The notes under the pieces were generated by a model. The model saw only the letters and a list, made by a program, of their open reading frames with translations. It did no database searches and was not told the DNA's origin. Both the position numbers and the translations under genes were made by a program. Source: Liolophura sinensis (lineage: Eukaryota; Mollusca; Polyplacophora; Chitonida; Chitonidae). Taken from it: 64,000 nt of DNA. The stretch spans positions 620,001 to 684,000 of the forward strand of contig NC_088300.1 in the NCBI RefSeq assembly GCF_032854445.1, given 5' to 3'. Positions 6,801-58,100 of the stretch are shown here, piece after piece (the first letter of the stretch is position 1; each line of letters starts with the position of its first letter).

Positions 6801-9800
6801 AGCCAGCAATATTACAGTGATGACGTTTTTAAAATACTGTAGGAAATTTCAAAAACAAATTGAGGAACAGTGATTGATTGCAAAAGGTAAATATAATGTG
6901 TGTGAAACAATCTATAATGCTTTACGAACCAAACATTTTGACAACTGTAACCCACACTGTGATAGTAGTACCAAGCCATAGTCAGTATGGTATACAGTGG
7001 GAGATATTTTACCTGCAGTTGTTTCTTCTGGTCTTTATTGTCCTCTATAGCCTTGAACAATTCCCCGCATGTGATTGGTACAATGCCCTTGTTGGGACCA
7101 TAGCCTATCATAGAGTAGCTTTTCCCCGAGCCCGTCTGTCCATAGGCGAACAAAGCGGCATTATAGCCCTGCCATGCATTATCCAGCACGCCTTTACCAA
7201 CGTCATTAAATACTCTTTTCTGGAAAGAAAAGGAAACGTAATTTGTTGAACATAATACAACCAAGGACTTAAAATAAGGACAGTTCGGTCAGAAACGTTT
7301 TGAATGTATACTATGTTGATCCAGAAGAATCTGCATGGTACAGTGATGTTTTTGTTGCATCCCAAACATAGCTGAATTCATCTGATATTTCCAGATAACT
7401 AAAACTCTTTGATCTCAACTTTACCTGATCAGCGTAAGAGGACTGGGCTGAGCTAGGGACCAAAACCCCAGCCTCGTTCTCGTGGTAACTGTCATGTGAC
7501 CAGTAAGAATGGTCGAAGGAGAAGACCTTGGTGTCGCCATTTTGTGGGTTTTTGATCACTGTTGTTCCTTTGTTCATGGAGATGATACATTTTGAACCCG
7601 CCGTCTTCTCTCGCTTTAAAACAAAAAAAAAATGCATTGGCTAGAGTGTTCTCTGGAAAGTACTATAATTTAAACTGCAATTTTAACTCAGATGGTCTGA
7701 AGGTACCCCATGATGGGTGGGGATTTAGTCAGATATTCACTGAGCAGCCGGTCAGGTAGCCGGTGGTGAGTAGGGATTTAGTCAGATATTCACTAAGCAG
7801 CCTGTCAGGGAGCCTTGCAGTGAGTGGGGATTCAGCCAGATGTTCACTAAGCAGCCCGTCAGAAACCTTGCGGTAAGTGGGGATTTAGTCAGATATTCAC
7901 TAAGCACTCTGTCAAGAACCTGGCGGTGAGTAGGGATTTAGTCAGATATTCACTAAACAGTCTGTCAGGTACCTGGAGGTGAGTGTGGATTTAGTCAGAT
8001 ATTCACTGAGCAGCCGGTCAGGTAGCCGGTGGTGAGTAGGGATTTAGTCAGATATTCACTAAGCAGCCTGTCAGGAGCCTTGCAGTGAGTGGGGATTCAG
8101 CCAGATGTTCACTAAGCAGCCTGTCAGAAACCTTGCGGTAAGTGGGGATTTAGTCAGATATTCACTAAGCACTCTGTCAAGAACCTGGCGGTGAGTAGGG
8201 ATTTAGTCAGATATTCACTAAACAGCCTGTCAGGTACCCCGCGATGGGTGGGGAGTCTGTCAGGTACCTGGAGGTGTGTGTCGATTTAGTCAGATATTCA
8301 CTAAAACAGTCTGTCAGGAACCTGGCGGTGAGTAGGAATTTAGTCAGATATTCACTAAAACAGTCTGTCAGGTACCTGGAGGTGAGTGTGGATTTAGTCA
8401 GATATTTCAATATGCAGCTTGTCAGGTAGCTGGCGGTGAGTAGGGGTTTAGTCCGATATTCACTAAGCAGCCTGTCAGGAACCTTGCGGTGTGTGGGGAT
8501 TTAGCCAGATATTCACTAAGCAGCCTGTCAGGAACCTTGCAGTAAGTGGGGATTTAGTAAGATATTGACGTGTCTGGCGGTGGGTGGGGATTTAGTAAGA
8601 TATTGACGTGTCTGGCGGTGGGTGGTGATTTAGTCAGATATTGACGTGTCTGGCGGTGGGTGGTGATTCAGTCAGATATTGACCGGTCTGGCGGTGAATG
8701 TGGTTTTAGTCAGATATTGACCGGTCTGGCAGTGGGTGGTGACTCAGTCAGATATTGACCGGTCTGGCGGTGGGTGGTGACAGTCAGATATTGACCGGTC
8801 TGGCGGTGGGTAGTGACTCAGTCAGATATTGACCGGTCTGGCGGTGGGTGGTGACAGTCAGATATTGACCGGCCTGGTGGTGGGTGGTGACTCAGTCAGA
8901 TATTGACCGGTCTGGCGGTGGGTGGTGACAGTCAGATATTGACCGGCCTGGTGGTGGGTGGTGATTCAGTCAGATATTGACCGGCCTGGCGGTGGGTGGT
9001 GACTCAGTCAGATATTGACCGGTCTGGCGGTGGGTGGTGACAGTCAGATATTGACCGGTCTGGCGGTGGGTGGTAATTAAGTCAAACCAATGGAACTGTT
9101 CCAGTGCTAAGGCGTACAATAACGTTTCCTAAAAACCGTAAATACCCTCTTTACGACTTTGGGCGATGGGAGAGAATCGTTCAAAACATCCAGGATCTGA
9201 TCCCAATCCCGATCACAACCAAAACGCCAAAGCCCAAGCACATCCGGGTTACCACCAACATTTAATGGATTGGTGATTTGTCCGAGCCCAAACAGTGCAC
9301 CAAATTTGATCCAAATGGATCTTTTTGTCCCTTTTCCGGTAGAGTTGCTGACAGACAGACAGATAACTAAAATGCAAATGGATCTTTTTGTCCCTTTTCC
9401 GGTAGAGCTGCTGTCAGACAGACAGATAAATAAACATGGAAGTAAATGTACTGCTATTAAATATTGAAGTTCTTAGAATAAAAGCGATGGTTCTTAGAAT
9501 AAAAGCGATGGTTCTTAGAAAACTACTTCCTGAACGAAAACTATAGTTGATATTCATTGACTTCATCATATTGACAGCTTTTGAAAAGTGAAACAAGGCC
9601 TGTATGTGCTTGACCCTACATGTGCCTGCTAGGATGACCCTATACGAACCTGCTAGGATGACCCTATATGTGCCTTCTCGGATGACCCTATACCTACCTG
9701 CTAGAATGACCCTATACGTACCTGCTGGGATGACCCTATACGTACCTGCTAGGATGACCCTATATGTGCCTTCTCGGATGACCCTATATCTACCTGCTAG

Positions 9801-26800: not shown

Positions 26801-29800
26801 CTTCACTATCTGGCAGTGGTGGCAAAGCAATGTTGTTGTATAAAGTTGTATTCTTAATACAGCAAAATGATACATTTTTAACTTGCTGTTACAAAGTATG
26901 GCAAGGTATTGTGAGTGTGGGAGAGAAGTAATGTTGGTGTATGTGTCGGTGTTTGGTTTTCTAGTTTGGGTCAGTTGAGTAAGGTTTTATGTTTGGATCA
27001 GTTGGGTAAGGTTTTATGTTTGGGTCATTTGAGTAAGGTTTTATATTTGAATCAGTTGAGTAAGGTTTTATGTTGGGGTCTGTTGAGTAAGATTTTATGT
27101 TGGGGTCTGCTGGGTAAGGTTTTATGTTTGAATCAGTTGAGTAAGGTTTTATGTTGGGGTCAGTTTGGTAAGGTTTTATGTTTCGGTCATTTGAGTAAGA
27201 TTTTATGTTTGAATCAGTTGAGTAAGGTTTTGTGTTTGGATCAGTTGAGTAAGGTTTTATGTTTGGGTCAGTTGAGTAAGGTTTTATGTTGGGGTCTGCT
27301 GGGTAAGGTTTTATGTTTGAATCAGTTGAGTAAGGTTTTATGTTGAGGTCAGTTGGGTAAGGTTTTATGTTTGGGTCATTTGAGTAAGGTTTTATATTTG
27401 AATCAGTTGAGTAAGGTTTTATGTTGGGATCAGGTGAGTAAGGTTTTATGTTTGGGTCAGTTGAATAAAGTTTTATGTTTGGGTCAGTTGAGTAAAATTT
27501 TATGTTGGGATCAGTTGAGTAAGGTTTTATGTTTGGATCAGTTGAGTAAGGTTTTATGTTGGGGTCTGCTGGGTAAGGTTTTATGTTGGGGTCAGTTGTG
27601 TACAGTTTTATGTTGGGGTCTGCTGGGTAAGGTTTTATATTTGAATCAGTTGAGTAAGGTTTTATGTTTGGGTCAGTTGAGTAAGGTTTTATGTTTGGAT
27701 CAGTTGAGTAAGGTTTTATGTTTGGGTCAGTTGAATAAAGTTTTATGTTTGGATCAGTTGAGTAAGGTTTTATGTTGGGATCAGTTGAGTAAGGTTTTAT
27801 GTTTCGGTCAGTTGAGTAAGGTTTTATGTTGAGGTCAGTTGAGTAAGGTTTTATGTTTCGGTCAGTTGGGTAAGGTTTTATGTTGGGGTCAGTTGAGTAA
27901 GGTTTTATGTTTGGGTCAGGTGAATAAAGTTTTATGTTGGGGTCAGTTGGGTAAGGTTTTATGTTTGGATCAGTTGAGTAAGGTTTTATGTTTGGGTCAG
28001 TTGAGTAAGGTTTTATGTTGGGATCAGCTGAGTAAGGTTTTATGTTGGGATCAGTTGAGTAAGGTTTTATGTTGAGGTCAGTTGAGTAAGGTTTTATGTT
28101 TGAATCAGGTAAGTAAGGTTTTATGTTTGGATCAGTTGAGTAAGGTTTTATGTTGAGGTCAGTTGAGTAAGGTTTTATGTTTGGATCAGTTGAGTAAGGT
28201 TTTATGTTTGGGTATGCTAGTCTCACAGTTTTCACATCGCTGCTATGAAACTTGGTGGGAATGATGAACAAGATTTGGACATTTACTCATTTTGATTATA
28301 AGTTAGGGATGTTTGAATTTTTGTTCAACAGAAGTACTGTTCAGTTTCGTTGGCCAGGGTAAGGTTTTATGTTTAGGTCAGATATTTCATCAGTTTTAAC
28401 ATCATTTTATGAATTTGATGGGAATGATGAAGAGGATTTGGGGATTTACTCATCTTGAATAATTAGGGATATTTGCATTTTAGCTCCCCATCATGAAGTA
28501 AGCTTTTTTGTTTGGGTCAGCTGTTGTCAAAGTTTTCGCTATATGTTCATGAAACTTCTTGGGCTTGATTAAGATGCTTTGAAGATGTTGATGTTTTACT
28601 TTATATTTCTGGTTTGGTAAAAACTAACATGTTTTGGACTTTCTGTGTCCACATTCACTTCAGTAGTGTATATGTAGCCTCAGAGTAAGGTTTCATGTTG
28701 GGATCAGTTGAGTAAGGTTTTATGTTGGGATCAGTTGAGTAAGGTTTTATGTTTGGATCAGTTGAGTAAGGTTTTGTGTTGGGGTCAGTTGAGTAAGGTT
28801 TTATGTTGGGATCAGCTGAGTAAGGTTTTATGTTGGGATCAGTTGAGTAAGGTTTTATGTTGAGGTCAGCTGGGTAAGGTTTTATGTTGGGATCAGTTGA
28901 GTAAGGTTTTATGTTGAGGTCAGCTGAGTAAGGTTTTATGTTGGGATCAACTGAGTAAGGTTTTATGTTTGAACCAGTTGAGTAAGGTTTTATGTTGGGG
29001 TCAGTTGAGTAAGGTTTTATGTTGGGGCCAGTTGAGTAAGGTTTTATGTTGAGGTCAGCTGAGTAAGGTTTTATGTTGGGATCAACTGAGTAAGGTTTTA
29101 TGTTTGAGTCAGCTGTTATCAGTTTTCATCAAATCTTCATGAAACTTCATGGGCTTGATAAACATGCCTTGATGATGTAGATATATGAATTTTGATATTT
29201 TTTTATCCAGGTTGCCTTGTTTAGGGACTTTCATTTTATTCACTATACATGTCTACCATGAAGACACTACCTGCTCAGTATGAATTTCAATGCCCTGTCA
29301 ATTTTGGCTGCCATTTGAACTGAAGCCACTACTGGCCAGTTGTGGGGTTTCTCATAACCCTTGTTAAAGAAAGGGATTTAGCAAAATGAGAAGCATTTTG
29401 AGGAATTCAGTGCAATGTAAATTGTAACTTTATTTATGTGGACATCTCTGAGTCTGAATTACCTTGGATCTTAATTGCTCTCAGTAATTATTGGGTATTA
29501 ATCATGATTGATTTATACTAGTACTTGTTCAGGGTTTAAGAGCAGACTCACCTTTAGGACAGTGGTCAGGTGTACTGATGGAGGTTCACCTGAGCGCCCC
29601 GTGTAAACCACCACCTTAACGCTAGGCATTTCTTGACGTCTTGACTTAATGTCATGGAAAAACTGATGGTGCTTGTGGTTGCTGAAGATGACTTGTCATT
29701 CACCAAAATGACATTGAAGTTTGTAATCCAGACCTGGGTAAGCACGGTTGTATGTTAATGGTAATAAGTGGATGTGTTGTGTTTACTTTTCAGACACAGT

Positions 29801-32800
29801 TTACTGGTCAGAGTTGCGTTACTCAGAGGGTGGTCGCTACGTAGTCTGCTCCGCGACGGTAGGCCATGAGGGCTACATCTCATGGACCCCTGAGGGGTTC
29901 AATGCCCGCACACGCGTCCATGAGTACGGGGGCGGGGCAGTGTTTGTCTATGATGGAGCCGTCTACTTTTCCAACTACGAGGACCAGAGATTATACAAAC
30001 AGACCTCCCCCACATCGGCTCCAGAAGCCCTTACCCCCAGCAAACAATGGAGATATGCAGATGGCCAGTATCATGTCAAGGTGAGACATTAGTTGCTTGT
30101 GGTGGATGGGTGGGATTTCTTTGCTGTAAGTGGCAGCACAATTCAGAAACAAATTCTAACAGACTTTTCTCAACAAGTGACCATGAATATAGTGTTTGGT
30201 TTAATGATTTATTAAATGTATTGTTATTTCAGCTGTCACCTGGAAATGTTATTTCAAATACAACATACTGGCATCTCAGCAGGATATGTCGTGACTAATT
30301 ACATTGTGAATGATTGCTCTAATGCTTTTTCGTTCACACTGGACAGTAATTTTAGGCCAGGCATATAGAGGCTTGGAATCAGAGCTGCTTAAACATATAT
30401 TCATGTTCAGACCATGTGACAAAATAAATTATTAATGGTCAATATTTAATGTTAACTTTTACAAAAGCATTAATGATGTCTTTGCTACAGAGATAGATCA
30501 TAGTGTCTTCACTGAAGCATAATGTGTTTTGCATTATAGTAAAACTATAGAGCACACTGTCTTTGCCATAGTAGAACATTACTGTTTACCATTTCTAGAG
30601 CATACTGTCTTTGTTATAGGGGTAGAACATTACTGTATGTCTCTGCTGGAGCATACTGTCTTTGTTATAGTGGTAGAACAGTACTGTATGTCTTTGCTAG
30701 AGCATACGGTCTTTGCTATAGGGGTAGAACATTAATGTATGTCTTTGCTAGAGCATACTGTCTCTGCTATAATGGTAGAACATTACTGCATGTCTTTGAT
30801 AGAGCATACTGTCTCTGCTATAATGGTAGAACATTACTGTATGTCTTTGCTAGAGCATACGGTCTTTGCTATAGGGGTAGAACATTAATGTATGTCTTTG
30901 CTAGAGCATACTGTCTCTGCTATAGTGGTAGAACATTAATGTATGTCTTTGCTAGAGCATACTGTCTTTGCTATAGTGGTAGAACATTAATGTATGTCTT
31001 TGCTAGAGCATACTGTCTTTGCTATAGTCATTTAAAGTTACTGTATGTCTTTGCTAGAGTGTACTGTCTCTGCTATAGTGGTAGAACATTACTGTATGTC
31101 CTTGCCAGAGCATACTGTCTTTGCTATAGTGGTAGAACATTAATGTATGTCTTTGCTAGAGCATACTGTCTTAACTATAGTGGTAGAACATTATATCTTT
31201 ACAAGAGTATACCGTCCTTGCTAGAGCATAAAAATGTCTTTGGTAGAGCATTACGCGTTTGTTTCGAAATGTATGTCAATGAAGGTATAAAAACTACCTT
31301 TTTCCGAAGGGAAAACTGCATTGACTACCCTTTGATATTATCATATTGACACAGTTTATTGCTGTATCGGTACAGTAACGCCAGATACATGTAGTAAAGA
31401 GGGCTGTGGATGACTGGTCCTGTCACACATAGAATGGTGAAATTAGGGCGAGTCAAATGCCTACCCATGTATAGGCATGCATTTGAATACGTTTTTATGA
31501 AAGTGTTTGAACATCACATGATTTGTGGATTATTATAGGTACTTCTGACTGTAAATTAGGGTGGAAAAATACGGCCCTGGAGTCAGTAAATCAAAGAAAC
31601 AAACAATGCATTTTCTGTCTTCTAAAGTTGACCTAGTTTTACCAAAAAATTATGGTGGTGAGCATTGTTGTACAGAGCAATTTAATTCTTATATGATGTG
31701 CTAAGGTGAAAATTTGGGTTCATTGGATGTAGCTCTAATAACTACCGTATGTATCATATTATTATTGTATATGTATGTATGTAATTATTACTGTACATGT
31801 ACGTAGGTAATTATTACTGTACATGTATGTAATTATTACTGTACATGTACGTAGGTAATTATTACTGTACATGTATGTAATTATTACTGTACATGTACAT
31901 ATGTAATTATTACTGTACATGTATGTATGTAATTATTACTGTACATGTATGTATGTAATTATTACTGTACATGTATGTATGTAATTATTACTGTACATGT
32001 ACGTATGTAATTATTACTGTACATGTACATAGGTAATTATTATGTACATGTATGTATGTAATTATTACTGTACATGTACGTATGTAATTATTACTGTATA
32101 TGTATGTATGTAATTATTACTGTACATGTACGTAGGTAATTATTACTGTACATGTATGTTACAAGTTATTTTGCATGTGAGGTATCTAGTACAATAGCAA
32201 TTTGTAACATTCAAGATGGTTGCTGCATTATAGATTATAGAATTTATTACACCTTAATAAACTGCCCAATTAAGGAATTGAATCTATTTAAAACAATGCT
32301 TGTTTGTTGTTCTAGTGTTATTGAATCAGTTGATGAGAATGCAGTGTGTTTTCTGGCTTTTCTGTTCTAGTGTCATTGAATCGATGAGAATGCCGTGTGT
32401 TTTCTGACTTTTCTGTTCTAGTGTCATTGAATCAGTTGATGAGAATGCAGTGTGTTTTCTGGCTTTTCTGTTCTAGTGTCATTGAATCGATGAGAATGCA
32501 GTGTGTTTTCTGGCTTTTCTGTTCTAGTGTCATTGAATCGATGAGAATGCCGTGTGTTTTCTGACTTTTCTGTTCTAGTGTCATTGAATCAGTTGATGAG
32601 AATGCAGTGTGTTTTCTGGCTTTTCTGTTCTAGTGTCATTGAATCGATGAGAATGCTGTGTGTTTTCTGGCTTTTCTGTTCTAGTGTCATTGAATCGATG
32701 AGAATGCCGTGTGTTTTCTGACTTTTCTGTTCTAGTGTCATTGAATCAGTTGATGAGAATGCAGTGTGTTTTCTGGCTTTTCTGTTCTAGTGTCATTGAA

Positions 32801-35800
32801 TCGATGAGAATGCAGTGTGTTTTCTGGCTTTTCTGTTCTAGTGTCATTGAATCGATGAGAATGCCGTGTGTTTTCTGACTTTTCTGTTCTAGTGTCATTG
32901 AATCAGTTGATGAGAATGCAGTGTGTTTTCTGGCTTTTCTGTTCTAGTGTCATTGAATCGATGAGAATGCTGTGTGTTTTCTGGCTTTTCTGTTCTAGTG
33001 TCATTGAATCGATGAGAATGCAGTGTGTTTTCTGACTTTTCTAGTGTCATTGAATCGATGAGAATGCAGTGTGTTTTCTGGCTTTTCTGTTCTAGTGTCA
33101 TTGAATCGATGAGAATACCGTGTGTTTTCTGGCTTTTCTAGAATGTAACAAACTGTTGTTAAGTATATGGTCCTCCAACTACTCTCTCATCAATTGTTAT
33201 ACCCTAGCCCTGTAAGTTCCTGACCCTTGACCTCTTGTTGCTCTTATCAGAATGGCCGCATCTATATCGTGAGGGAGGACCATGAGGTGATAGGTCAAAA
33301 TGGCGTCAAGGAAGCTGTCAACACTGTGGTTACTATTGACCCTAAAACACAGGAACAAATCGTGCTGGTAAGGGACATGACCTCTCATCCTAATCTCTAC
33401 AAACTGACACCCGCCGTTGTTTATGAAGGCCCATAATTGATTGATGTTGATACCCTAATACTATCCTAATGATACCCTAATACTATCCTAATGAAAATGG
33501 GAATTTTACATGCAGATACATGTCAGTTGTTTGTGAGTTGGTATAATAAAACAGATACATGTTATGGTGTACTTCTCTCTGTGGTAAAATTAGTCTGTTA
33601 AAACTTGATATATATGTACTGAGTATTAAAATGCCATCCTAAATGTTAAATCTGACTGACATTCAAGACTTGTTGTATTTCAGTGTTGAATGTAAGGAGT
33701 GATAGTTGACCATTGGCTATTACTCTATTTCACCCAAAGTTTGACCTTTAAAAATGTTCTTTCACAAATGCTGAAGACTTTAAATTAATGCAATTGATGC
33801 CAGTAGTTAAGTTTTTCTTGTAAGAAATAATTTAGACTTCATCAAAAATGCTTTAGGCAGCCTTGTATTAGAAGGTGGATGAATCAATCAGAATGTTTCT
33901 GTTGAAAAATTTGAACTTTAGGTAAATTCAGTAATTGGTTTGTGCAAGTTATTGAGCCCTCTGATGTGCTTTTTCCCCAACAGGTCAGCGGTGCCGACTT
34001 CTACAGCTGCCCGCGTGTCTCCCCTGATGGCAAGAGGTTAGCCTGGGTTCAATGGGATCACCCTAACATGGTATACTCTCACCCTGCCGTCCATTTAGTC
34101 TACATTAAACCCCAGTCAGATGAAGAAATCTGTCTACCCTTAAGGGGCCATATCTAAAGCCATTTTATTTGTGGAAATATTGTGGGCTTCCAAACTGTTG
34201 TGCCCCCAAGTTAATCATGCTGCATTTTAACTAATAAATACATTTAACAAAAGTATAATGGTTTATCAAGTATAAGTTATATATTCTTGAGTATTAGCAT
34301 AAAAACTCTGATCAAATAAATTCCAACTTAAAGTTTACCTCTCTGACAAAGTTTGATTAAAGTATGTTGATGTTACCCCCTTTGTATGTCTACTTGTCTC
34401 TCTGTATGTCTACTTGTTTTTCTGAAAATCTACTTGTTTGCCTGTATTTCTACTTGTTTTTCTGACTGTTTACTTGTTTTCTGTATGTCTACTTGTCTGT
34501 CTGTGTCTACTTGTCTGTCTGTTTGTCTGTCTGTCTGTTGGTATGTCTACTTGTCTCTCTGAATGTCTACTTGTTTGTCTGCAGGTCTACTTGTGTGTCT
34601 GTCTGTGTCTATTTATCTCTCTGTATGTCTACTTGTCTGTCTGCGTGTCTCCCTGTGTCTATTTGTCTATCTGTATGTCTTCTGTTTGTCTGTCAGTATA
34701 TGTCTCCAGTTTGTCTGTGTGTCTATTTGTCCATCTGTATGTCTGTTTGTGTGTCTATTTGTCTGTATGTCTACTTGTCTGTCAGTCTATCTGTCAGTCT
34801 GTCTGTTTGTCTATGTCTACGGTTTGTCTGTCTGTATATGTCTACAGTTTGTCTGTGTGTCTATTTGTCCATTTGTATGTCTGTTTGTGTGTCTATTTGT
34901 CTGTCTCTGTGTCTACTTGTCTGTATGTCTACTTGTCTCTCTGTATGTCTTTTTGTCTGTCTGTCTATTTGTCTGTCTGTATGTCTACTTGTCTGTCTAT
35001 TTGTCTACTGTTTGTCTGCATCATCTTGTAAACCATGCAGCTGTCACCCACATGTGAGTTTCACTGGACTTTTTTACCCCCTTGTAGCCTTGGGATTCCA
35101 CAGATGTGTGGGTGGCAGACTTGTATGTCTGTATGTTTATTTGTCTGTCTTTTTCCTCTTGTAGCCATGGGACTCCACAGAAGCCTGGTTGGAAGACTTG
35201 TCTGTCTGTATGTTTATTTGTCTCTCTTCCCCCATGCAGCCATGGGACTCCACAGAAGTGTGGGTGGCAGACTTGTATGTCTGTATGTTTGTTTGTCTGT
35301 CTTTTTCCCCTTGTAGCCATGGGACTCCTTAGAAGTGTGGGTGGCAGACTTGTATGTCTGTATGTTTATTTGTCTGTCTTTTTCCCCTTGTAGCCATGGG
35401 ACTCCACAGAAGTCTGGGTGGCAGACTTGACCGAAGGTGGTAGCGATGTAGTGAAAGGGTCAGCCCAAAAGGTAACCAGGAAGAAATCTCCATTCCTATC
35501 ATATAAACTTCCTAGTATATTGTATTTGTAAAGCAGTTTTAAAAATATACAAGTATCTCCTGTTCTGTTTTTCATCCTTAAAAGAAGAGACCATCTTCAT
35601 ATAATGATGCAGTGTTATTGGTGTTCATTGTTGGGTGATGAATGATGCAGTGTTATCGGTGTTCATAATTGGGTGATGAATGTTGCAGTGCTGTCGGTGT
35701 TCATCATTGAGTGATGAATGATGCAGTGTTATCGGTGTTCATCATTGGGTGATGAATGATGCAGTGTTATCGGTGTTGAGCATTGCATGATGAATGATGC

Positions 35801-38800
35801 AGTGTTATCGGAGTTCAGCATTGTAATGTGTGGGATATTTCAATTACCAAACTGCTGTGGTTTCCCCAGACTGTCTGGTATACAAGGGAAAAATGATATA
35901 TAAGGGAAAAATGATATATAAGTGAAGAAGTCTTGAGTCATTTTTAGTATTTTTTTTAAATATTTTGCTGTCTGTTTCAGAGCATGATGGAGGATTTTGT
36001 GCTGTCCACAAGAGTATCAGTAGATTATATCCAAATTTCTTATTGTTTTTGTTACTGTTATTTTGATACGCTGTGTTCAGGTGTCTGGTGGTGATGATGT
36101 CAGTGTGATATACCCTGGCTGGACAATGGACAATGAACTGTTATACATCGGTGACCAAACAGAGTGGTGGAATCTGTACCATGTGACCAAGTCAGGTGAC
36201 CACGTCAACCTTCATCCTAAACAGGCCGAGGTCGGTTGTCCTCATTGGATCTTTGGGTTCAACAAATACAGCATCGACCCAACTGGCAGTGGCAATATTC
36301 TAACCTTGTTTGGACGAGTAAGTGGAATGAAAGAGTGGAATAGTTTTGAGAATAGTTCTGTCTGTTACGGATCAGTTTGGTAACACAAGGTCTGAGTGAC
36401 TTCTGACAGCAACAATGTTGTGAAAATGTGATATGATGACAGATAGTGATGACATGACAACTGTTATGATGACTGATCCTGCTGACATGACAACTGTTAT
36501 GACTGATCCTGCTGACATGACAACTGTTATGACTGATCCTGATGACATGAAGACTGTTATGACTGATCCTGATGACATGACAACTGTTATGACTGATCCT
36601 GCTGACATGACAACTGTTATGATATAATTTTACCCCAGTCAGGGTTTTATTCTAACCAATGATGACTAATCATGATGACTGATCATGATGACTAATCGTT
36701 ATGACTGATCATCTTTCAGGACCTTGGTCTGTTAAACTTGAAGACAAAAGAGTACAAGGCGATGCAGACAGGGTTTGGCAGCCACACCCTCATCAACTAC
36801 TCAGGGGACGGGCAATATGCATATTGTATCGCTGACAGCCCTACACAGTTCCCTGTTGTTCTGAGAATCAACCTCAGCAACACTAAGGTAAGGGGAAAAC
36901 TAACAACATCTCCCTAGTTGGTGACTTCAGTTTGATGGACATGGTCTCAACATAGTTACTATTTTTTGGAAATTCAATATATTGGTGTGTTCACTGATGA
37001 TGATGGCAATCATGTTAAGAAACATTGCAAAGAGATTCGTGGTTAATTTTTTATCATGATTTGCCATTGACAGGTGGAGGTCCTGCGAGAGTCCAAGACC
37101 AGCACACTGGACAAGGGTTACTTCAGTATTCCCACAGAGATTAGTTGGACAACGGCTGGCAACAAAATTGCGTACGGTTATTTCTACCTTCCTCAGAACA
37201 AAGACTTCCAGGCACCAGAAGGAACCTTACCTCCCTTGCTGGTGAAAGCTCATGGCGGACCCACAGCAAAGACGTTTAATGGGCTCAACTTAAAAATCCA
37301 GTACTGGACAAGTCGAGGCTTTGCAGTGCTGGATGTCAACTATAGAGGCAGTACTGGCTATGGGAAGACATACAGACATGCGCTTAGAAGGAAGTAAGTC
37401 CGACTTTGTGGATAATTTGTAAATACAAAATATCGCCAAATATTTTGCACCTTTTGAGATCTCTATCTAGCAGCAGAATGCGATTGCCACTGTGACTTTG
37501 TGTCCACTTTACAAAGAGTGCAAAGATAATTATTTATTGGTATGGTAGGCATTCAGTTGCCATGGTAATTTCCTGAATGTACACGCACATAACGTTACTT
37601 AGGGTGATTACCATTATGTGGAAACACCCGTGTCACCAGCCTTGAATGTACACGCACATAACGTTACTTAGGGTGATTACCATTATGTGGAAACACCCGT
37701 GTCACCAGCCTTGAATGTACACGCACATAACGTTACTTAGGGTGATTACCATTATGTGGAAACACCGGTGTCACCAGCCTTGAATGTACACGCACATAAC
37801 GTTACTTAGGGTGATTACCATTATGTGGAAACACCGGTGTCACCAGCCTTGAATGTACACGCACATAACGTTACTTAGGGTGATTACCATTATGTGGAAA
37901 CACCGGTGTCACCAGCCTTGAATGTACACGCACATAACGTTACTTAGGGTGATTACCATTATGTGGAAACACCGGTGTCACCAGCCTTGACTAGCCAATC
38001 ACATGACATTATTCACCGTAATTGTTAACTTATTAGTTTTTCGGTGTTTGCAACACCGTTGTTTCAGCATAGTCATAAATGCCTCTAGCATAAACCTGAA
38101 CATAGTGGTTCCTCAGTTCAGTAAAAGGATCTCTGGAAAGGCACAAGCACAGCTTTTCCCCTTCCTCTTTATGCTTGATAGACTTAGTCTCTTCCTCTGC
38201 CATGCTCTGGGTGTATTTTTGTCCAGCTGTAGTTCCTAACAGGTAGTTGTAAAACCCACAATATATGAATTAGACACTTCCAACAGTTGAGGCTTGGACA
38301 ATTTTTGTTATCTATTTTCCATTTTTATTTTTTTTCTGTTACTTGTATGGGTGCACATCTGTGTACTACTTTCCTCCAACTGTCACCAGTAGAAAGCTGT
38401 CAAACTGAGGCAACTGCCAAACTGAGGCAACTGTCAAACTGAGGCAACTGTCAAACTGAGGCAACTGTCAACTGAGGCAACTGTCAAACTGAGGCAACTG
38501 TCAAACTGAGGCAACTGTCAAACTGAGAAAACTGTCAAAAGCAGAAAACTGTCAAACTGAGAAAACTGTCAAACTGAGAAAACTAGTAGATGCTTCAAAT
38601 ATGTGCACAGCACCAACACGTAGGTTCTAAACTTTCAGCTTGCACACATTTGACATTTTTTGTATATTTACCTTGTGCATGTTATATTTCCCGAGGAATC
38701 TCATTGACACCCAGAGCCCTAGATTTTAAGTCCAGTCCCTCATTTTAATAATGTAAATCTGCAATAGTTGCAACATTGTGCGAGAAGTTCTACAGCTTGT

Positions 38801-41800
38801 GTACACTGTTGTAGCTGGGGCATCTGTGATGTGGAAGACTGCTGCAGTGGTGCGGAGTTTCTGGCCAAGGAGGGGAAAGTGGAAGCTAAGCATTTGTGTA
38901 TTGATGGTGGATCAGCTGGAGGGTATACAACCCTGGCTAGCTTAGCATTCAAAGATGTCTTCAAGGCTGGTGAGTCATGCAGCTTATGTTTGTTAGCTTT
39001 GTTTTCGGGTTGGAAAGACAAGGGATGTCCATTTTGAGGTTGAAGACCATGGACAATATTTTACACTTGCCTTTTTTTCTAAATGTACCACAGATCGAGA
39101 GATAAATGTAGATGCCATATTGTAGTATAAAAAAGAGTGGTGGATGGTGACATCTTACGTTTGTCATTTGACCGATATAGCAGGCATTTTTGTATGTCAC
39201 ATGTGGGAAGTTTATCAGTGACTTACCAGAGGTGGCTGTTCTCCCCTGGCCAGTGCAGTTCCCTCTCCCTCAAACCTAACACCCATTCTTTAAATACTAA
39301 CACCCATTGTTTTAATCATAATACCCATTTTTAAATTCTTGAGTAAACATTCAAATAAATACATTAATATTACTCTCAGTGCTCATTTTGACTGTTAAAA
39401 TGATGAATTTGACGGAGTTTTTCCCGTATAGGTTCTACACATTTTTGAAATAATGAGAAACTTTTTATTTTGGAGGGACGTTCGAAATGTGAGATGGTTT
39501 CAGTACAAGTCTTGTTCGTCTAATATCAAGAAATGGCTCAGTATGACACCGTCTACCTCTGTATCCCATTGTTATCTACAGGAGCCAGTCATTATGGTGT
39601 GGCTGATATTGAAGCCTTAGCAACGGACACCCACAAGTTTGAGAGTCGCTACATGGACTCACTGATTGGACCATACGATGAGGAGCATAAACAGTTGTAC
39701 AAGGACCGCTCGCCGATCAACCATGTCAACAGCCTGAACTGTCCTATGGCATTTTTCCAGGGTGATGAAGACAAGGTGAGTACCCTGGGCTCCACTTCTT
39801 GTTGGGTGGAGTTATTGTGTAACAGTATTGTTACTTAGCAACCATAGCAACCAGTACTGCAGAGATTGTGTCCTGTGCATCTGTGAGGAGAGGGGAACAG
39901 AATTGGTCACCAGATGAGGGCGTGTACATGGTCTGTGACTGGGAGGGGTGTCGGGGTCGGGTGTTTTGGGTGGGGCATCATGTGTTGGACATCACATGTG
40001 GTGTCTCGGCTGGGACATCAGGCCTGGTGTGTTGGGTGGTACATCAGGCCTGGTGTGTTGGGTGGTACATCAGGCCTGGTGTATTGGGTGGGACAGCAGA
40101 TTTGGTGTCATGGATGGGGCATTGGGTCTGGTGTTTTGGGTGGGGTATAGGCCTGGTGTCTTGGGTGGGACAGCAGATTTGGTGTCATGGATGGGGCATT
40201 GGGTCTGGTGTTTTGGGTGGGGTATCAGGCCTGGTGTCTTGGGTGAGGCAGCAGGTGTGGTGTCTTGGGTGGGGCATTGAGTGGTGTTTTGGGTGGGACA
40301 TCAGGTCTGGTGTCTTGTGTAAGATATCAGGTCTGATGTCTTGGGTGGGACATTAGGCTTGGTGTCTTGGGTGGGACATTAGGCCTGGTGTGTAATGTGG
40401 GAAATTGGTTCAGGTGTCTTGGGACATGACTGAGATATGACTGAAAGAGTGTGTTAAGTGACATTAAGCCCATCAAGCAAGCATATCCATTTAAATGTAG
40501 TAACAGTGTGTAAACTGCTCTGTTTAGATTGTGCCGCCCAACCAAGCAGAGATGATGTACAATGCTGTCAAAGCCAAAAAACTACCCACAGTATATGTGC
40601 TGTTTAAAGGTAAGGCAAGATCACAAGTCTGTTAGTAGTCAGTGTGGAACACACATTTTTACAAAGTATGTGGACAATCTGTAGAGCAGTATCAAACCCA
40701 GAAAGTCATTCTGAAGGTGTGGGTGATACTCAGGAACACTTACAATAAGGAAAGGGCTTTGAGGTTGACTCCACAAATCAAAACTTCATATTTTCGTAGT
40801 GTTGACTGAAATGAATAAGAATAAATGTTATTTTTTCTTTTTGTTTCAACTGGATGATGTCCAAATATTAATTAATGAGTGTCCAGCATAACTTTGTAAC
40901 ATGGCAAACTGATCATGACTTCCTGTCAGAGACTAATTTGTCAGTACAGAAATTCCAATCTGACCAATAGATATGGACGTGCTATAAACAGTTATCAGGT
41001 TTGTGCTACATTCTGCATGCATCTGCTATAGACAGTAATCTGGTTTGTGCTACATGCTATAGACAGTAATTTGGTTTGTACTACGTGCTATAGACAGTAA
41101 TCTGGTTTATGCTATGTGCTATTGACAGTAATCTGGTTTGTGCTACGTGTTATTGACAGTAATCTGGGTTTGTACTACATGCTATAGACAGTAATCTGGT
41201 TTGTGCTACGTGCTATTGACAGTAATCTGGTTTGTACTACATGCTATAGACAGTAATCTGGTTTGTACTACGTGCTATAGACAGTAATTTGGTTTATGCT
41301 ACATGCTATAGACAGTAATCTGGTTTGTGCTTTTAATTTCCAGGTGAACAACATGGCTTCCGTAAAAGTGAAAACATTCAGAAGGCCTTGGACGGGGAGT
41401 TCTACTTTTTCTCTCGAATCTTTGGATTTGAACCAGCTGACAAAGGAATTGAAGTAAGTTAACATACTGACAGGAAATATGGTGTGTTCACATTTCATAT
41501 CAGATATGTACAGCTGGTACATGTGGTGTGTTGAATGGCCCTCTGTGATATATTGCCACCAAGCATACATGTGGTGTGTTGAATGGCCCTCTGTGATGTT
41601 CCCACCAGGCATACATGTACAGCTGGTAAATGTGGCATGTTGAATGGCCCTCTGTGATATATTCTCACCAAGCATACAGGTACAGCTGGTAAATGTGGCA
41701 TGTTGAATGGCCCTCTGTGATATATTACCACCAAGCATACATGTACAGCTGGTAAATGTGGCTTGTTGGAGTGGCCCTCTGTGATATATTCTCACCAAGC

Positions 41801-46124: not shown

Positions 46125-49100
46125 CTACAGCACAACATAACCACACCTCAGTTTGGACTTCAAATCACCTATCTATCACAAAGTGAATGTCTTCAATCTA
46201 CCTACCTGAAGACATATGATTTTATAAGGTTGAAAATGGACTTAATGGGTGGGCTAAAAAAGCTCTGTATCACGCACAGAGCTGATTACTAGTTTAGGTT
46301 CATGTGGGGACAAGCCAAATGCTAATATCAACAAGGCAGTTAAATCAATCAACAAAAATCAGTTAAATTTCGAAAATTACATCAAGTGTAGTGCTTATAC
46401 AATACAGGCAAAGTTTAAAATGTTTTTACAAGCAGAATGACACCTCTTATACAGGAAGGAGAAATCATGCTTAATATCAGACATTTCTCGCCAGGGTGTC
46501 TCCTTATGTAGGATTCGCAACAATAATATACAAGGACGTGCTCAAAACTCATACCCTGATTTGAACCAGGAAGTCCCTCAAATGGTCCTTGAATGCTGGG
46601 ATGTCTAGATTAAAGCTGAAGAGGCCCTCAATGAAGACCTTGATTTGGGGTCTGAAAGGAAGAATAGAAATAACGTTAATGACTGGATGACATAAATAAA
46701 CAGAACAGCCTCTGTATGAAGTATTCATCAGTAATCCTGGCAACGAAGGCTGGACCAGGCTGTATGAAGTACACAAGTAATCCTGGCAACGAGGGCTAGG
46801 CCAGACTGTATGAAGTTCATCAGTAATCCTGGCAGCGAGGGCTAGGCCAGGCTGTATGAAGTTCATCAGTAATCCTGGCAACGAGGGCTGGGCCAGGCTG
46901 TATGAAGTTCATCAGTAATCCTGGCAACGAGGGCTAGGCCAGGCTGTATGAAGTACACGAGTAATCCTGGCAACAAGGGCTGGACCAGGCTGTACAAAGT
47001 ACATGAGTAATCCTGGCAACGAGGGCAAGGCCAGGCTGTACGAAGTACATGAGTAATCCTGGCAATGAGGGCTACGCCAGGCTGTACTAGGTAAATGAGT
47101 AATCCTGGCAACGAGGGCTGGGCCAGGCTGTACGAAGTACACGAGTAATCCTGCCAATGAGGGCTGGGCCAGGCTGTATGAAGTACACAAGTAATCCTGG
47201 CAACAAGGGCTGGGCCAAGCTGTATGATGTACATGAGTAATCCTGACAATGAAGGCTAGGCCGGGCAGTTGGTCAAAAGTTCATGTGATATGGTTTAAAT
47301 TAGGTTTGCAATGACGTCTTCGCCAAACTATTCTGGCGTTTACTGCTCACCAGAAAATTGCAGCGACAACTAAATATGCACGGGCTTCAAACAGATCAAG
47401 TTTGCTGCATACACTGTGGCAGCCTATTTTGTACACTATGGCAGCCTATTTTGAAGACCCTGAAAATGATAAATGGTGTAAACATTCTTATGGCACGCCT
47501 TCACAAGGTGCTGTCCTTTCCTTTCATGAATGTCCCATACCTGAATGAAACCCCTGCAGTAAGTCTCACACAAAGGCACAAGTTTACATAGGTGGCTGAC
47601 TGGCTGTGATACGTACTCATTGAGGTGAGGGAAAGCTGCTTTGAGCAGGTTTAACAGAAACTGCTGGATGTAGGGGATGTTCTGGTTGGGTCCGATGTCC
47701 TGCCCCAGAGCGACAGTTATCTTCCCAGCCTCTAGTAAACTGAACATGTATGCCAGGATGGTGGCATGCATCGTCAAACCTAAACAAGCAAACAAACAAC
47801 CAAGTTAGTCAGGAGTCTATGATGTGGCACACTCACAATAAAATGTCATGTTTTTGTCCCTGTAGGAGATAACTGCACAATAATTAATGGTTTACATCAG
47901 AACAGTATGCGATGATTTATTTGTGCAAAGTTACAGTAATGAAAATTATAACATGTTAATAATTCAAAATTACAGTTCTTTTCCAAACATTTTGATGTAT
48001 AATTTCCCAGCATGTTTCTTATTAAACAAAAGAATAGGGTCCAACCTGCAGTGTGTGAGCTGTCCGTGACCACAGAGAAGATATGCTGTAAGATGTCCGT
48101 GAAGTAGGTGCTGTAGAAACTCTGGGCAGCCGTCTCCTCATCGGCAATGTTCTGCAGTAACTTGTACAGGATGTCCAGACCAATGTCTGCTACATTCCTC
48201 ATTGTGTGTTTGAATGCCCAAATAATAGAGTCCAACACCAGCTTAAACTTAGGCGCTGAGATACTGAGTAGAGCTGCAAACAGAATCACGCACGGGTCAA
48301 CCAGATACGCAGAAAATAAAAACCTTTACTTTCACACGGACATTTCAAAAACACCGACGACAAAAAAGTTTTCTTTTGGCCCTTGTAACAAAATTGTCTT
48401 TTTTTTTTCAATGTTAAACGCTTAATACATATTCCCTGCAGTTACAAGATGGAAGTGACAATACTCCCAGACACATCTGTGGGCAGTGTGAAAAGACAGT
48501 AAATGTTGGGTGAAATCTTACCATGAAAACAGTTTGAGTTGACCGCTTGCAGTAGCACAAAGAAGTTTGTTCTGTGTTCTGGGAACTCCTCGAAATCCTA
48601 TGAAAACATAATATCATGTAAAAACAGGATTCATGAAAAAGCAGTTTGCCCCTGGTTAGTCTCTTCTCACACAGTGCTAAGTTTTAACTTATTTGCAACT
48701 AATAACCTTTAACAGAAACCAGATAAGCAGAACCACAAACAAGACTAGGAAATGAATATTGAACAATCTGGAAATTTGGTCCTGAACCAAAAAAATTGCG
48801 GGGTTTCATTCTACATCTGGTTGACAACTACTTTATTTATCATGTCCAGAGTACATTCAAACACTGCATTGAAGACCTGTGGGAGCTACATCCGGTTGAC
48901 AACTTACTTTATTTATCATGTCCAGAGTACACTCAAACACTGCATCGAAGACCTGTGGGAGCTACATCCGGTTGACAACTTACTTTATTTATCATGTCCA
49001 GAGTACACTCAAACACTGCATCGAAGACCTGTGGGAGCTACATCCAGTTGACAACTTACTTTATTTATCATGTCCAGAGTACATTCAAACACTGCATCGA

Positions 49101-52100
49101 AGACCTGTGGGAGCTACATCCGGTTGACAACTTACTTTATTTATCATGTCCAGAGTACATTCAAACACTGCATTGAAGACCTGTGGGAGCTACATCCGGT
49201 TGACAACTTACTTTATTTATCATGTCCAGAGTACATTCAAACACTGCATTGAAGACCTGTGGGAGCTACATCCGGTTGACAACTTACTTTATTTATCATG
49301 TCCAGAGTACATTCAAACACTGCATCGAAGACCTGTGGGAGCTACATCCGGTTGACAACTTACTTTATTTATCATGTCCAGAGTACATTCAAACACTGCA
49401 TCGAAGACCTGTGGGAGCTACATCCGGTTGACAACTTACTTTATTTATCATGTCCAGAGTACATTCAAACACTGCATCGAAGACCTGTGGGAGCTACATC
49501 CGGTTGACAACTTACTTTATTTATCATGTCCAGAGTACATTCAAACACTGCATCGAAGACCTGTGGGAGCTACATCCGGTTGACAACTTACTTTATTTAT
49601 CATGTCCAGAGTACATTCAAACACTGCATCGAAGACCTGTGGGAGCTACATCCGGTTGACAACTTACTTTATTTATCATGTCCAGAGTACATTCAAACAC
49701 TGCATCGAAGACCTGTGGGAGCTACATCCGGTTGACAACTTACTTTATTTATCATGTCCAGAGTACATTCAAACACTGCATCGAAGACCTGTGGGAGCTA
49801 CATCCGGTTGACAACTTACTTTATTTATCATGTCCAGAGTACATTCAAACACTGCATCGAAGACCTGTGGGAGCTACATCCGGTTGACAACTTACTTTAT
49901 TTATCATGTCCAGAGTACATTCAAACACTGCATTGAAGACCTGTGGGAGCTACATCCGGTTGACAACTTACTTTATTTATCATGTCCAGAGTACATTCAA
50001 ACACTGCACTGAAGACCTGTGGGAGCTACATCCGGTTGACAACTTACTTTATTTATCATGTCCAGAGTACATTCAAACACTGCACTGAAGACCTGTGGGA
50101 GCTACATCCGGTTGACAACTTACTTTATTTATCATGTCCAGAGTACATTCAAACACTGCATCGAAGACCTGTGGGAGCTACATCCGGTTGACAACTTACT
50201 TTATTTATCATGTCCAGAGTACATTCAAACACTGCATTGAAGACCTGTGGGAGCTACATCTGGTTGACAACTACTTTATTTATCATGTCCAGAGTACATT
50301 CAAACACTGCATTGAAGACCTGTGGGAGCTACATCCGGTTGACAACTTACTTTATTTATCATGTCCAGAGTACATTCAAACACTGCATCGAAGACCTGTG
50401 GGAGCTACATCTGGTTGACAACTTACTTTATTTATCATGTCCAGAGTACATTCAAACACTGCATTGAAGACCTGTGGGAGCTACATCCGGTTGACAACTT
50501 ACTTTATTTATCATGTCCAGAGTACATTCAAACACTGCATTGAAGACCTGTGGGAGCTACATCTGGTTGACAACTACTTTATTTATCATGTCCAGAGTAC
50601 ATTCAAACACTGCATCGAAGACCTGTGGGAGCTACATCCGGTTGACAACTTACTTTATTTATCATGTCCAGAGTACATTCAAACACTGCATCGAAGATCT
50701 GTGGGATATCCTTCAACACATGGCTCTGAAACAGGTCAGTAAAGATTAGACTCGCATTCACAGCTTAGGCAGCAGGCAACCGAAATGAAACCGCCATGGA
50801 ATGAATAGTTTATTTATTTATTTGACTGGTGTTTTACGCCGTATTCAAGAATATTTTACTTATGGTCAGTGGCCAGCATTATGGTGTGAGAAAACCGGGC
50901 AGTGCCCAGGGGAAGCCCACGACAATTCGCAGGTTGCTGGCAGACCTGGAATAAATAATAAAATATCAAACACTGCTATTAAATCAAAAGTAACACAAGA
51001 ATACAACAAGCATGTGAAATGAGAATTACAATACTCTCCAGGAAAGACCAGATCCAGAAATTTTGCCCTGAATTTCACTATCTGACCCTCAACAATAAAT
51101 GAATGTGACAAATCTGAAGTTCCAATAACTTCATACTTTGGCTAAGCCACAAAACAAACTGCAAATTAACTAGAAGTGAATGGTTATCTCTGAAACCTGC
51201 TTCAGCTTACCTCCAGCTTGTTGACTATTGTAGCCATGGTACTGAGAACTTCTGGTTCTCTTGCTGCTGGCACATTTCTCTGGTAATCTCTCAACACTGC
51301 ATCCAGTAAAGGTGGGATGAAGTTCTCTGCCACCTGAAAGTGAAAAGTCCACATCAGTCCGGAGTGCTGTTCAGAAAGCTGAGGAGATGATCCATTCTAC
51401 CTGTTGTCTCACCATCTAACATGCAGCAAGAAGAATGACATCCCTATTTATTACGCTGTACTAGAAACAGATTTCAATATTTTGCAGCAAAAAGAATTTG
51501 AACAATTCCAATTCTTAATGTATATAGTCCGAGGTGTTACAGTTGATGGACCTTGTTAACTTACCATGACCATATCATTGGAGCGGCTCACCCAGGTTGA
51601 GATGAGTTTGAGGGTTTCCTTCTTGACAGTCCTCATGCTACGGATCAGAGGCTGTTTGGTGACGCTCTCCCCGTTAGTAGCGATGGCGCTGCTGATATTT
51701 TCACTCATCACCTTGTACACATTCAGCATGTCCAGGTACACACGACCAAGCTACAACACAGCACCGCAGCCACTTATACGGCAGGTATGACAATGCAGTA
51801 ATCTTATACAGATAGCCTTATATTTTAAATCTTCAAGAATTTCCTCACTTGATAATAAAGATTTTATGGTATATTCAAGTTTGCATTATCTTGACATTAA
51901 CAGAAAACGGGTGGCAAAACCACAAAAATAAATCATTCCACAGTCTGCAGAGAGAGACTGTAGCACAATGCTGGCATGTCTGACTCACCTGTACCACATA
52001 GGGATGGCCTAGAGCTTTACAAGCTCGTACATTTGTTTTCAAAATATTGCCCAACTGCTTTACAGCATCAGGGTCCTTCAGCACTTCAAAATTCTGAAAA

Positions 52101-55100: not shown

Positions 55101-58100
55101 TTGGTAAGCTGAGGATTGTAAAGCTGGCGTCGAATGGGCATCTCTCCATGCTGTTTGCCCAGTATTAATGGTGAAGGGGCCATGGGAAAAGGACTCTCTC
55201 TGTACAAATCAGCTGCCAACGTATTCCAGTACTCCAGACAAATTTTGAAAATCTCCACTTCTTCTACTTCTGAGATGAGGATGAGGTAATGTAGGGCCTG
55301 GTGAGAAGAAAACCATGTTATTTTAAGGTATACTTTTCTAAATATCTTTTAGACCATTGCCAACATATTCAGTGCAGCACAAATTACATGATCATCTTGT
55401 GCATTTATTTCCTTTGGATCCATCTTCAGTTTTATTTTCTTGTCCAAGCAAGTGATATATGGTGTCCACCTGGCCATAAAACTTCCTTTCCTGTAGGCAG
55501 AAGCCCTGTGGCAAGGTTGGTTTGCTCAAATCTTGCTTCATGAAGCAGTGGTAATTTAGGAAACACAGACAGAAGATGCATGTCACCATAGTAAATGTAC
55601 TCAGTGTAACTTTGCAAAAGCCTTGTAAAACAAATCCTAGGACTCCAACTCACTGTAGTTTGACTTGACATATCCCATGTTATTCTATTCATCCTACTGT
55701 TTTACGCTGTACTCGAAAATATTTCACCGATTTGAAAGCGAGAGGGGGTCCTGTTTATAATATCACAGGCTGTAATGTACATGTAAGTGTGACCTCACAA
55801 CATAAACATTTACTCAAATACTGGATAGCCAGACTGGGAATCTGCATCACGCCTATTCGGATTTCACAACAGTCCAAACTATGCCAGAGGACTGAAGTAT
55901 TGTTTCTAGTTTGTTTCCTTCGTCGGGAAGTGACTAATGTTGTAGGAGAGATAACTGCATGTGTCCTCACCTCCATCAGCGTAGGGTGTAAGTCCTGTTT
56001 CCTCTCTATCAGCTGAGCATGCTCTTTCAAGTAGGTGCATAAAAACAGGCTCAAATTCTGGATAAAGTTTTGTTCATCATCGCTTCCCCTCTGGTAAGCC
56101 TCTCGGATATTTGTCTCCAATGGCAACATCTGAAATGAAAGGAGAACCAATTAGAGCCTTCCACCAATGCGGACATAAAAACCTTCCAGCTGTGGGCAAA
56201 AGAACTTATGAAACAGAAGTCAACACCTCGTCTGGAATACCAATGCAGAGATATGAAACCTTCCAGATATGGGCAAAAGAACTTATGAAACAGAAGTCAA
56301 CACCTCATCTGGAATACCAATGCAGAGATATGAAACCTTCTAGATGTGGACAAAAGAACTTGTGAAACAGAAGTCAACACCTCGTCTGGAATACCAATGC
56401 AGAGATATGAAACCTTCCAGATGTGGACAAAACAACTTGTGAAACAGAAATCAACACCTCTTCTGGAATACCAATGCAGAGATATGAAACCTTCCAGATG
56501 TGGACAAAACAACTTGTGAAACAGAAGTCAACACCTCATCTGGAATACCAATGCAGAGATAGGAAACCTTCCAGATGTGAGCAAAAGAACTTATGAAATA
56601 GAGGTCAACACCTCGTCTGGAATACCAATGCAGAGATATGAAACCTTCCAAATGTGGGCATAATAACTTATGAAACAAAAGTCAACTCCTCGTCTGGAAT
56701 TTATTTATATAATTGCTGACCCAAGGATATTGAACTATCAACAAATTCAAATCGTAAACAACAAGAAAAAAAATTTAGTTATATTTAAGGATGATATGCA
56801 GACTTATCGGTTGCATCCTCACAGTTAACAGATGCAGATCCCCAAGTCATTATCAACAATGGTGGAACTGTTTACCTGTTTCAGTTGACATCTCATGCAG
56901 TCCAGGCTTACTTTCATCAAATGACATGACAGATTTTCCCTGTTTCAGTTACAATTGTCTGAGACAGCTCATGCAGTCCAGGCTTACTTTCATCAAATGA
57001 CATGACAGACTTTCCCTGTTTCAGTTACAATTGTCTGAGACAGCTCATGCAGTCCAGGCTTACTTTCATCAAATGACATGACAGACTTTCCCTGTTTCAG
57101 TTACAATTGTCTGAGACAGCTCATGCAGTCCAGGCTTACTTTCATCAAATGACATGATAGACTTTCCCTGTTTCAGTTACAATTGTCTGAGACAGCTGAT
57201 GCAGTCCAGGCTTACTTTCATCAAATGACATGACAGACTTTCCCTGTTTCAGTTACAATTGTCTGAGACAGCTCATGCAGTCCAGGCTTACTTTCATCAA
57301 ATGACATGAAAGACTTTCCCTGTTTTAGTTGCAACTGTCAGAGACATCTCATGCAGTCCAGACTTACTTTCATCAAATGACATGACAGACTTTCCCAGTT
57401 TTAGTTACAATTGTCTGAGACATCTCGTGCAGTCCAGGCTTACTTTCATCAAATGACATGACAGACTTTCCCTGTTTCAGTTACAATTGTCTGAGACAGC
57501 TCATGCAGTCCAGGCTTACTTTCATCAAATGACATGACAGACTTTACCTGTTTCAGTTACAATTGTCTGAGACAGCTCATGCAGTCCAGGCTTACTTTCA
57601 TCAAATGACATGAAAGACTTTCCCTGTTTTAGTTACATCTGTCCAGGACATCTCATGCAGTCCAGACTTACTTTCATCAAATGACATGACAGACTTTACC
57701 TGTTTTAGTTACGGCTGCCAGAGACATCTCATGCAGTCCAGGCTTACTTTCATCAAATGACATGACAGACTATAACTTTGTTCAGGTGTGTCACTGTGAG
57801 AATGAACATTTGCAGCAGACTTATTTTTATCAAATTGTGTGACTTACCTGTTTCAACTGTGTCATTGTCAGAGTGAACAGCTGGATAAACTGTTCATCAT
57901 ACTGTAATACTTGAACACCAGCTGTCGAAACAGAAAGTGCAAACTAATATAGGCCCATGTTACTGTAAGCAATTCCACTTGTACTAGGTAGATTCTAGTT
58001 AAAAATTACAATGTTATAATTTGGCGTCCATTGATCGTAAGATTATCCCCGATTACTTTTTCAATATTTTGAAGAAATATCAATAAAATGCTAACATTAA

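Follow-up and report, generated by a model that had tools for sequence, protein, structure and literature searches.

Why does one intron of the XPO1 gene of a chiton hold two dozen further copies of the end of the preceding exon, and what happens to these copies when the transcript is spliced? We addressed this in a stretch of 64,000 nucleotides of Liolophura sinensis (positions 620,001 to 684,000 of contig NC_088300.1, assembly GCF_032854445.1), which we call the window. The assembly was built on high-fidelity (HiFi) reads (SRX20411988) with a mean length of 8,347 bp and was first published as Liolophura japonica (PMC11068029), the species name having since been corrected to L. sinensis (PMC12441733). 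By far the likeliest answer, in our assessment, is that the copies form an exon-edge minisatellite, of the kind called 'mirage' in amphioxus, which is spliced out from the first donor. Exon-edge arrays recur in the L. sinensis genome, where they seem to be over-represented at exon edges, and they are probably removed harmlessly in splicing.

We located the gene by means of a human XPO1 probe and set the exon ends at AG/GT sites that keep the reading frame open. This gave 24 exons on the minus strand, from 63131 to 45978, which encode 1,031 residues with 0 internal stops. The first ~41 residues are unplaced, so that our exon numbers give the order among mapped exons and the true number of exon 19 is higher. 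Independent support for the identity as Exportin-1 comes from the Protein Data Bank, where a stretch of 657 residues finds Exportin-1 chains (36 distinct sequences; best E-value 0). Genome-wide, the 301 C-terminal residues match C6:665981-671333 alone (31/31 matches), and in a tree of 40 rows the window sequence lies inside the molluscs (100/99), without a close relative. The exon in question, the 19th mapped, occupies 50654..50725 on the minus strand (72 nt, 24 residues, phase 0) with the acceptor CTGTTTCAG/AGCC and the donor AAA/GTAAGT, where the slash marks the exon boundary, and it aligns to the Exportin-1 chains. It is followed by an intron of 2,056 nt (48598..50653) and by the next exon at 48522..48597, with 25 protein letters, both on the same strand.

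This intron holds the extra copies. Tandem Repeats Finder (TRF) reports a minus-strand array at 48811-50706 with a period of 76, 25.0 copies and 98% matches, which starts with the genuine exon end (50654-50706) and continues with copies that each comprise the exon end, the donor and the first part of the intron. The first-pass annotation, made from the letters alone, had proposed about 24 extra copies of a 76-base unit; TRF and a copy-by-copy reading agree on exactly 24, and the alignment of the copies confirms that the unit consists of 53 exon bases and 23 intron bases. The last 40 exon bases together with the first 20 intron bases recur ten times without a mismatch further down their own intron. 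As a query the exon end scores 120/120 for exon 19 and at most 24 for the other 22 XPO1 exon ends, the alignment that overlaps exon 19 itself being left uncounted. Among the best candidates scored genome-wide, this locus was the only match to a 596-base piece of the array.

All of the 24 copies carry an open, phase-0 segment of 45 nt, which reads GTC TTC, then GAT, AAT or AGT, and ends in AAT AAA. It lies between CTCCCACAG and a donor, with CTCCCACAG/G directly before it in 24/24 copies. The first extra copy has its segment at 50578..50622 and the last at 48832..48876, both on the minus strand and both with the weak donor GTAGTT, and unique intron sequence follows the last one. In 21/24 copies the donor is AAA/GTAAGT, identical to that of the genuine exon and equally strong (8.4 bits), and in the other three it is AAA/GTAGTT (0.9 bits). 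The acceptor-like CCACAG sites score 4.6 bits in 20 copies, 3.7 in three and 5.2 in one. These scores come from a matrix of the other XPO1 introns, which is small (23 donors, 24 acceptors). The AG-to-GT geometry and the 31-base gap between adjacent copies had both been predicted; the geometry was present throughout and the gap in 22/24 cases, the remaining two being 30 nt.

A short series of events would account for this anatomy. First, a tandem duplication of ~75 bases would have spanned the 5' splice site at the end of an XPO1 exon. The upstream-most copy would have stayed the working exon end, which is why the duplication could be tolerated, and the extra copies would have landed in the intron. 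Slippage or unequal exchange may then have raised their number to 24. In the present gene the first donor, at 50654, would normally be joined to 48597 and the array would leave with the intron, which is expected to be removed whole. This skipping, also the simple expectation of the first-pass annotation, appears to be the likeliest fate of the copies. Should a later donor be used together with the true acceptor, the array would be read in, and translation past the first donor gives 16 further residues and then a stop inside the first extra copy. The use of a later donor would therefore be unproductive, and leakage is expected as a low-level unproductive transcript.

Similar structures have been described in lancelets. 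Amphioxus mirages are minisatellite-like duplications of intron-exon boundaries, variable in number and with AG/GT kept in many copies, and are reported at 5' or 3' boundaries of Adh3, the globins BflGb6 and BflGb9, PGBD5 and other loci. Reverse transcription PCR suggested that they do not interfere with splicing, and they have been proposed to play a part in the gain of introns (PMC3087553, PMC3902484). The chiton array has the same defining anatomy of boundary-spanning tandem copies with splice signals, since exon end, donor and intron start are joined in 24/24 copies and full donors are kept in 21/24. It differs from the mirages as described in belonging to another phylum (Mollusca) and in its 24 copies, compared with 6 and 3 units in two BflGb6 haplotypes. 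Its unit moreover carries the internal CCACAG, so that every copy by itself forms a whole AG-to-GT segment in phase 0, and the chiton arrays recur in exon matches that were not selected for arrays. A further likeness is to intron gain by tandem duplication, as reported for a potato RNA-dependent RNA polymerase gene (RdRp) and for human boundary repeats, where the duplicated boundary yields ready splice signals; the new introns there were detected or are transcript-supported, whereas the chiton array is a feature read from the genome (PMC4974935, PMC2812944). A literature search with mollusc terms returned no title on boundary minisatellites in molluscs, and the main text of a chiton-genome paper (PMC12005716) contains neither 'tandem repeat' nor 'minisatellite'.

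The differences between the copies carry information about their history. The protein variants of the segment are VFDAV in 14 copies, VFNAV in eight and VFSAV in two, and all 24 copies share GTC where the genuine exon has ATC, which points to a single founder copy. The unit has six variable places, divided equally between the 45 exon-derived bases and the 31-base spacer. Half of them are CpG changes (TTCGAT to TTCAAT; ACCGG to ACCAG or ACTGG), as expected from the decay of methylated CpG, the methylation itself being a guess. Variants are similarly frequent in the exon part (3/45) and the spacer (3/31), and two of the three variable sites in the exon part alter the protein, as read off the copies; no constraint at the protein level is therefore visible, and the variants look neutral. 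They would also imply a past expansion of the array, as represented in one assembly. Long near-identical arrays are generally error-prone in assembly, and an artefact or a collapse of reads could in principle have produced the array. We regard this as extremely unlikely: the mean HiFi read of 8,347 bp exceeds the 1.9-kb array (PMC11068029), the copies show ordered variants and clean edges, and further exon-edge arrays exist at unrelated loci, as described below.

The complete AG-to-GT segments raise the question whether the copies might be used as exons. The first-pass annotation had suggested a stochastic ladder of mini-exons, in which non-neighbouring copies are joined in frame and insert a variable number of 15-residue pieces. 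The geometry and the phase stand, as 24/24 copies are open in phase 0 and 21/24 have full donors. The acceptor-like site before each copy scores, at 4.6 bits in 20/24, more than the 3.2 bits of exon 19's own acceptor and falls inside the range of genuine XPO1 acceptors (1.2-14.5 bits). Tandemly duplicated alternative exons are complete exon copies that each have a functional acceptor and are included in mRNA; in the chiton array each copy has the acceptor-like site, and the genuine acceptor and its pyrimidine tract lie outside the array unit. The copy acceptor is nevertheless mediocre, because, of 657 decoy AGs taken from the XPO1 introns, 9.7% reach the same score. The steps are also short: adjacent segments are 31 nt apart and every second segment ~107 nt, both below the shortest mapped XPO1 intron (163 nt). 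Together with the neutral look of the copies, this makes inclusion very unlikely.

Protein data bear on the same possibility. Among the 120 relatives' proteins listed, out of 3,888 matches, there is no second copy of the segment, and in 119/120 MINK is followed directly by the D or N of the next exon; one protein (P0065) fits neither pattern. A ladder-shaped query (342 fragments) gave no two-copy protein among the 120 listed, and in P0168 the junction position is occupied by unrelated sequence. Junctions of the MINK-VFDAV type are absent from the 240 listed proteins, none of them known to be from L. sinensis, so that this result shows only that a ladder is not general. In a structure model of a Pecten protein (P0007) the corresponding 15 residues (825-839) lie at the end of a long helical region, which stops at 838 and is followed by a turn. 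An insert would fall at this turn of a conserved solenoid protein, which speaks against the ladder, in a model that is weak (mean predicted local distance difference test score 73.7, predicted template modelling score 0.48) and too uncertain to judge an insert.

The same gene contains a second, older exon-edge array. The 7th mapped exon (57848..57921, minus strand) ends in MTQLKQ with the donor CAG/GTAAGT, and the intron after it (56130..57847, minus strand) holds 12 copies of a 76-bp unit at 56887..57771, also on the minus strand, which start 76 bases past the donor. This unit aligns with the end of the exon, the donor and the following intron at a score of 50, compared with at most 40 in 300 shuffles, and a score of 49 compares with a maximum of 35 among 2,946 equally long random windows. 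The exon copy and the array consensus are identical at 42/70 aligned bases, and the first copy of the array resembles the exon more than the other copies do. At the position of the exon donor GT is kept in 2/12 copies, and none of the 12 is as strong as the original (at most 7.3 vs 12.2 bits). All 12 carry a further donor-like AAAGTAAG, distinct from the copied exon donor, which scores 7.5 bits as AAAGTAAGC.

Over the whole gene, the donor query of the own exon stands out in 2/23 introns (scores 120 and 44; others 14-27) and the acceptor query in 0/23 (scores 15-25). Two other XPO1 arrays, at 46712 and 56163, sit 60 and 33 nt from acceptors; we rejected them as exon-derived, their scores against the flanking exons being no better than those of shuffles. 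A period of 76-77 is common to three of the four XPO1 arrays (48811-50706, 56163-56700 and 56887-57771), for which we found no reason. A comparison of 34 array stretches of the window with the sequence around them, in which the array at exon 19 hides the exon it came from and the exons of other genes are only partly mapped, gave a match to an exon of the array's own gene for the stretch at 56887 alone.

To what extent such arrays occur elsewhere was surveyed at kinesin and myosin genes. Genome-wide there are 132 matches to the kinesin family PF00225 and 81 to the myosin head PF00063, and we examined 71 and 35 of them, in 21 and 9 stretches of ~188 kb together. We compared both sides of each match with the sequence next to them, against a background of 40 shuffles. 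This flagged 11/142 kinesin and 10/70 myosin sides, and from these 21 flagged sides we accepted nine exon-edge arrays by eye, five on the donor side and four on the acceptor side. Eleven flags fall on the nine arrays, the one at C11 being flagged three times. The donor-side arrays are at C11:27412983, a kinesin locus (67-73 bp, ~26 copies), C1:4570948 (63 bp, 17 copies), C1:26644459 (31 bp, 6 copies), C12:686729 (66 bp, 8 copies) and C12:684214 (31 bp, 18 copies), and those on the acceptor side are at C8:682171 (64 bp, 12 copies), C9:4628084 (27 bp, ~44 copies), C2:5378501 (32 bp, 43 copies) and C1:67512493 (95 bp, 3 copies). Exon-edge arrays are thus found at 9/212 survey sides (4.2%), or at 11/258 (4.3%) with XPO1, which entered through the finding itself and is not an unbiased draw.

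The array at C11 (6687-8760 of stretch L050) is 2 kb long, lies on the donor side of an exon that ends in SPASYNESETKSTLMFGQR, from which we take the gene to be that of a conventional kinesin, and includes a long second copy of the 3' half of the exon (8309-8431). The array at C1:4570948 (1489-2581 of stretch L038, minus strand) has a unit that is also an in-frame AG-to-GT segment of 36 bases, DMSYSVSMSYLE-like, with the donor GTAATG, not GTAAGA, in 15/15 copies that have an exact exon end. Three donor-side units were checked for such an in-frame segment: XPO1 exon 19 (45 bases) and C1:4570948 (36 bases) have one, and the C11 unit (49 or 55 bases) does not.

The other flags were dropped. At C6:54957544 the array is wholly intronic and the match of the hidden Markov model extended into it, and at C1:4562919 the array stops ~30 nt short of the likely acceptor. 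The flags at C1:26642195 and C1:26643291 are whole-exon duplicates, near-identical neighbouring myosin exons (696-800 and 1792-1887 of stretch L056) comparable to the mutually exclusive exons of muscle myosin. Six flags were weak (C8:32218957, C1:51084184, the acceptor side of C1:4570948, C1:39821666, the donor side of C2:5378501 and C1:26645593), and the first of these may be a lone decayed copy.

The nine arrays are more than expected if arrays lay anywhere. When the 45 arrays of the 30 survey loci were placed at random, each with one founding unit, 2.6 (standard deviation 1.6) would straddle an edge, and nine or more did so with P 0.0005 in 2,000 placements. With different settings, a Poisson calculation put the expectation at 2.4 and P at 0.0009. 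If only the extent of the arrays is considered, 11 of them reach a match edge, including the two that were rejected, and in XPO1 two edge arrays are seen and 0.74 expected. We consider the roughly three-fold excess suggestive, given that acceptance was by eye, that matches often stop some bases off the exon end and that array density varies. A possible cause would be that the copy anchored in the exon is protected from decay and continues to reseed the array. The long second exon stretch at C11 is what conversion from the exon would give and would fit such reseeding. A bolder proposal is that in chitons short arrays are preferentially born or kept at splice junctions, where the exon copy held by selection reseeds them, and that at several per cent of all exon edges they form a standing reserve of spare splice sites and mini-exons, with XPO1 nearest to use through a low-level in-frame ladder of 15-residue helical inserts. 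We hold this to be rather unlikely.

The strength of the donors varies between the arrays. The donor matches that of the genuine exon in 21/24 copies at XPO1 exon 19 and in 0/12 at exon 7, and in the survey in 5/26 at C11, 1/17 at C1:4570948, 4/5 at C1:26644459, 6/6 at C12:686729 and 1/17 at C12:684214, where copies were located by fuzzy matching and a few are off register. In 4/7 donor-side arrays most copies are thus weaker than the genuine donor, with XPO1 exon 19 as the full-strength exception. Acceptor-side arrays mostly retain the AG (8/11, 27/37, 39/41 and 2/2 copies). The weakened donors may reflect selection against strong decoys, or the spread of a founder mutation.

These observations are relevant to the possibility that the XPO1 array controls gene dosage. 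Identical decoy donors would compete with the first one, and a share of the pre-mRNA that depends on copy number would be degraded on account of the stop that lies within the first extra copy. The equal strength of 21/24 donors and the stop met on read-through fit this idea, and the mostly weaker donors of other arrays look as if full-strength decoys were costly; a founder mutation can, however, spread weak donors without selection. A human parallel is the variable number tandem repeat (VNTR) in intron 18 of ABCA7, which has ~12 to 427 units. Like the chiton array it begins at the donor of an exon and has a donor in each unit, every unit beginning with GT. It differs in its 25-bp unit, which starts from the GT and for which no exon-derived segment is described, and in that effects on splicing were measured (PMC5954066). 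Its length correlated with skipping of the next exon, exon 19, and with lower expression, and a single retained unit was reported in ~2% of transcripts, a retention that did not vary with VNTR length (PMC5954066). This last result speaks against dosage control, as does the report that amphioxus mirages do not disturb splicing (PMC3087553). In the second XPO1 array the donor-like AAAGTAAG of 7.5 bits in 12/12 copies argues against silencing of donors there. Taken together, dosage control appears to us very improbable.

Several points weigh against our preferred explanation, in which splicing from the first donor removes an exon-edge minisatellite. As 21/24 decoy donors do not differ from that of the genuine exon, competition could exceed that in the amphioxus or ABCA7 cases. 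The edge excess depends on the nine acceptances by eye among 21 flagged sides, and an earlier, cruder estimate for kinesins alone was not significant (4 seen, 2.2 expected).

Boundary minisatellites, described before in lancelets, are now seen in a mollusc, where they occur in XPO1 and in several kinesin and several myosin genes. It is this recurrence across unrelated genes that deserves attention. The arrays are natural experiments on how a donor is chosen among dozens of identical ones and on how new introns and exons start. Public RNA-seq of five L. sinensis tissues, namely digestive gland, foot, gill, gonad and heart (BioProject PRJNA973839, SAMN35319765-SAMN35319769; PMC11068029), makes the splicing question testable now.

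The window as a whole is rich in repeats. Tandem arrays with units of at least 15 bases make up ~29% of it (30 or 31 arrays by two countings), and 20 kinesin stretches of the same genome contain 17%. Array-rich introns also separate the kinesin exons at 711-7616 on the minus strand (Pfam kinesin matches at C6:619626-627225) and the exons of an S9-type peptidase, identified by eye from translations, at 29793-39790 on the plus strand. An array at 12834-13939 matches, when reversed, 6898-6978, which touches a kinesin exon edge 5.9 kb away.

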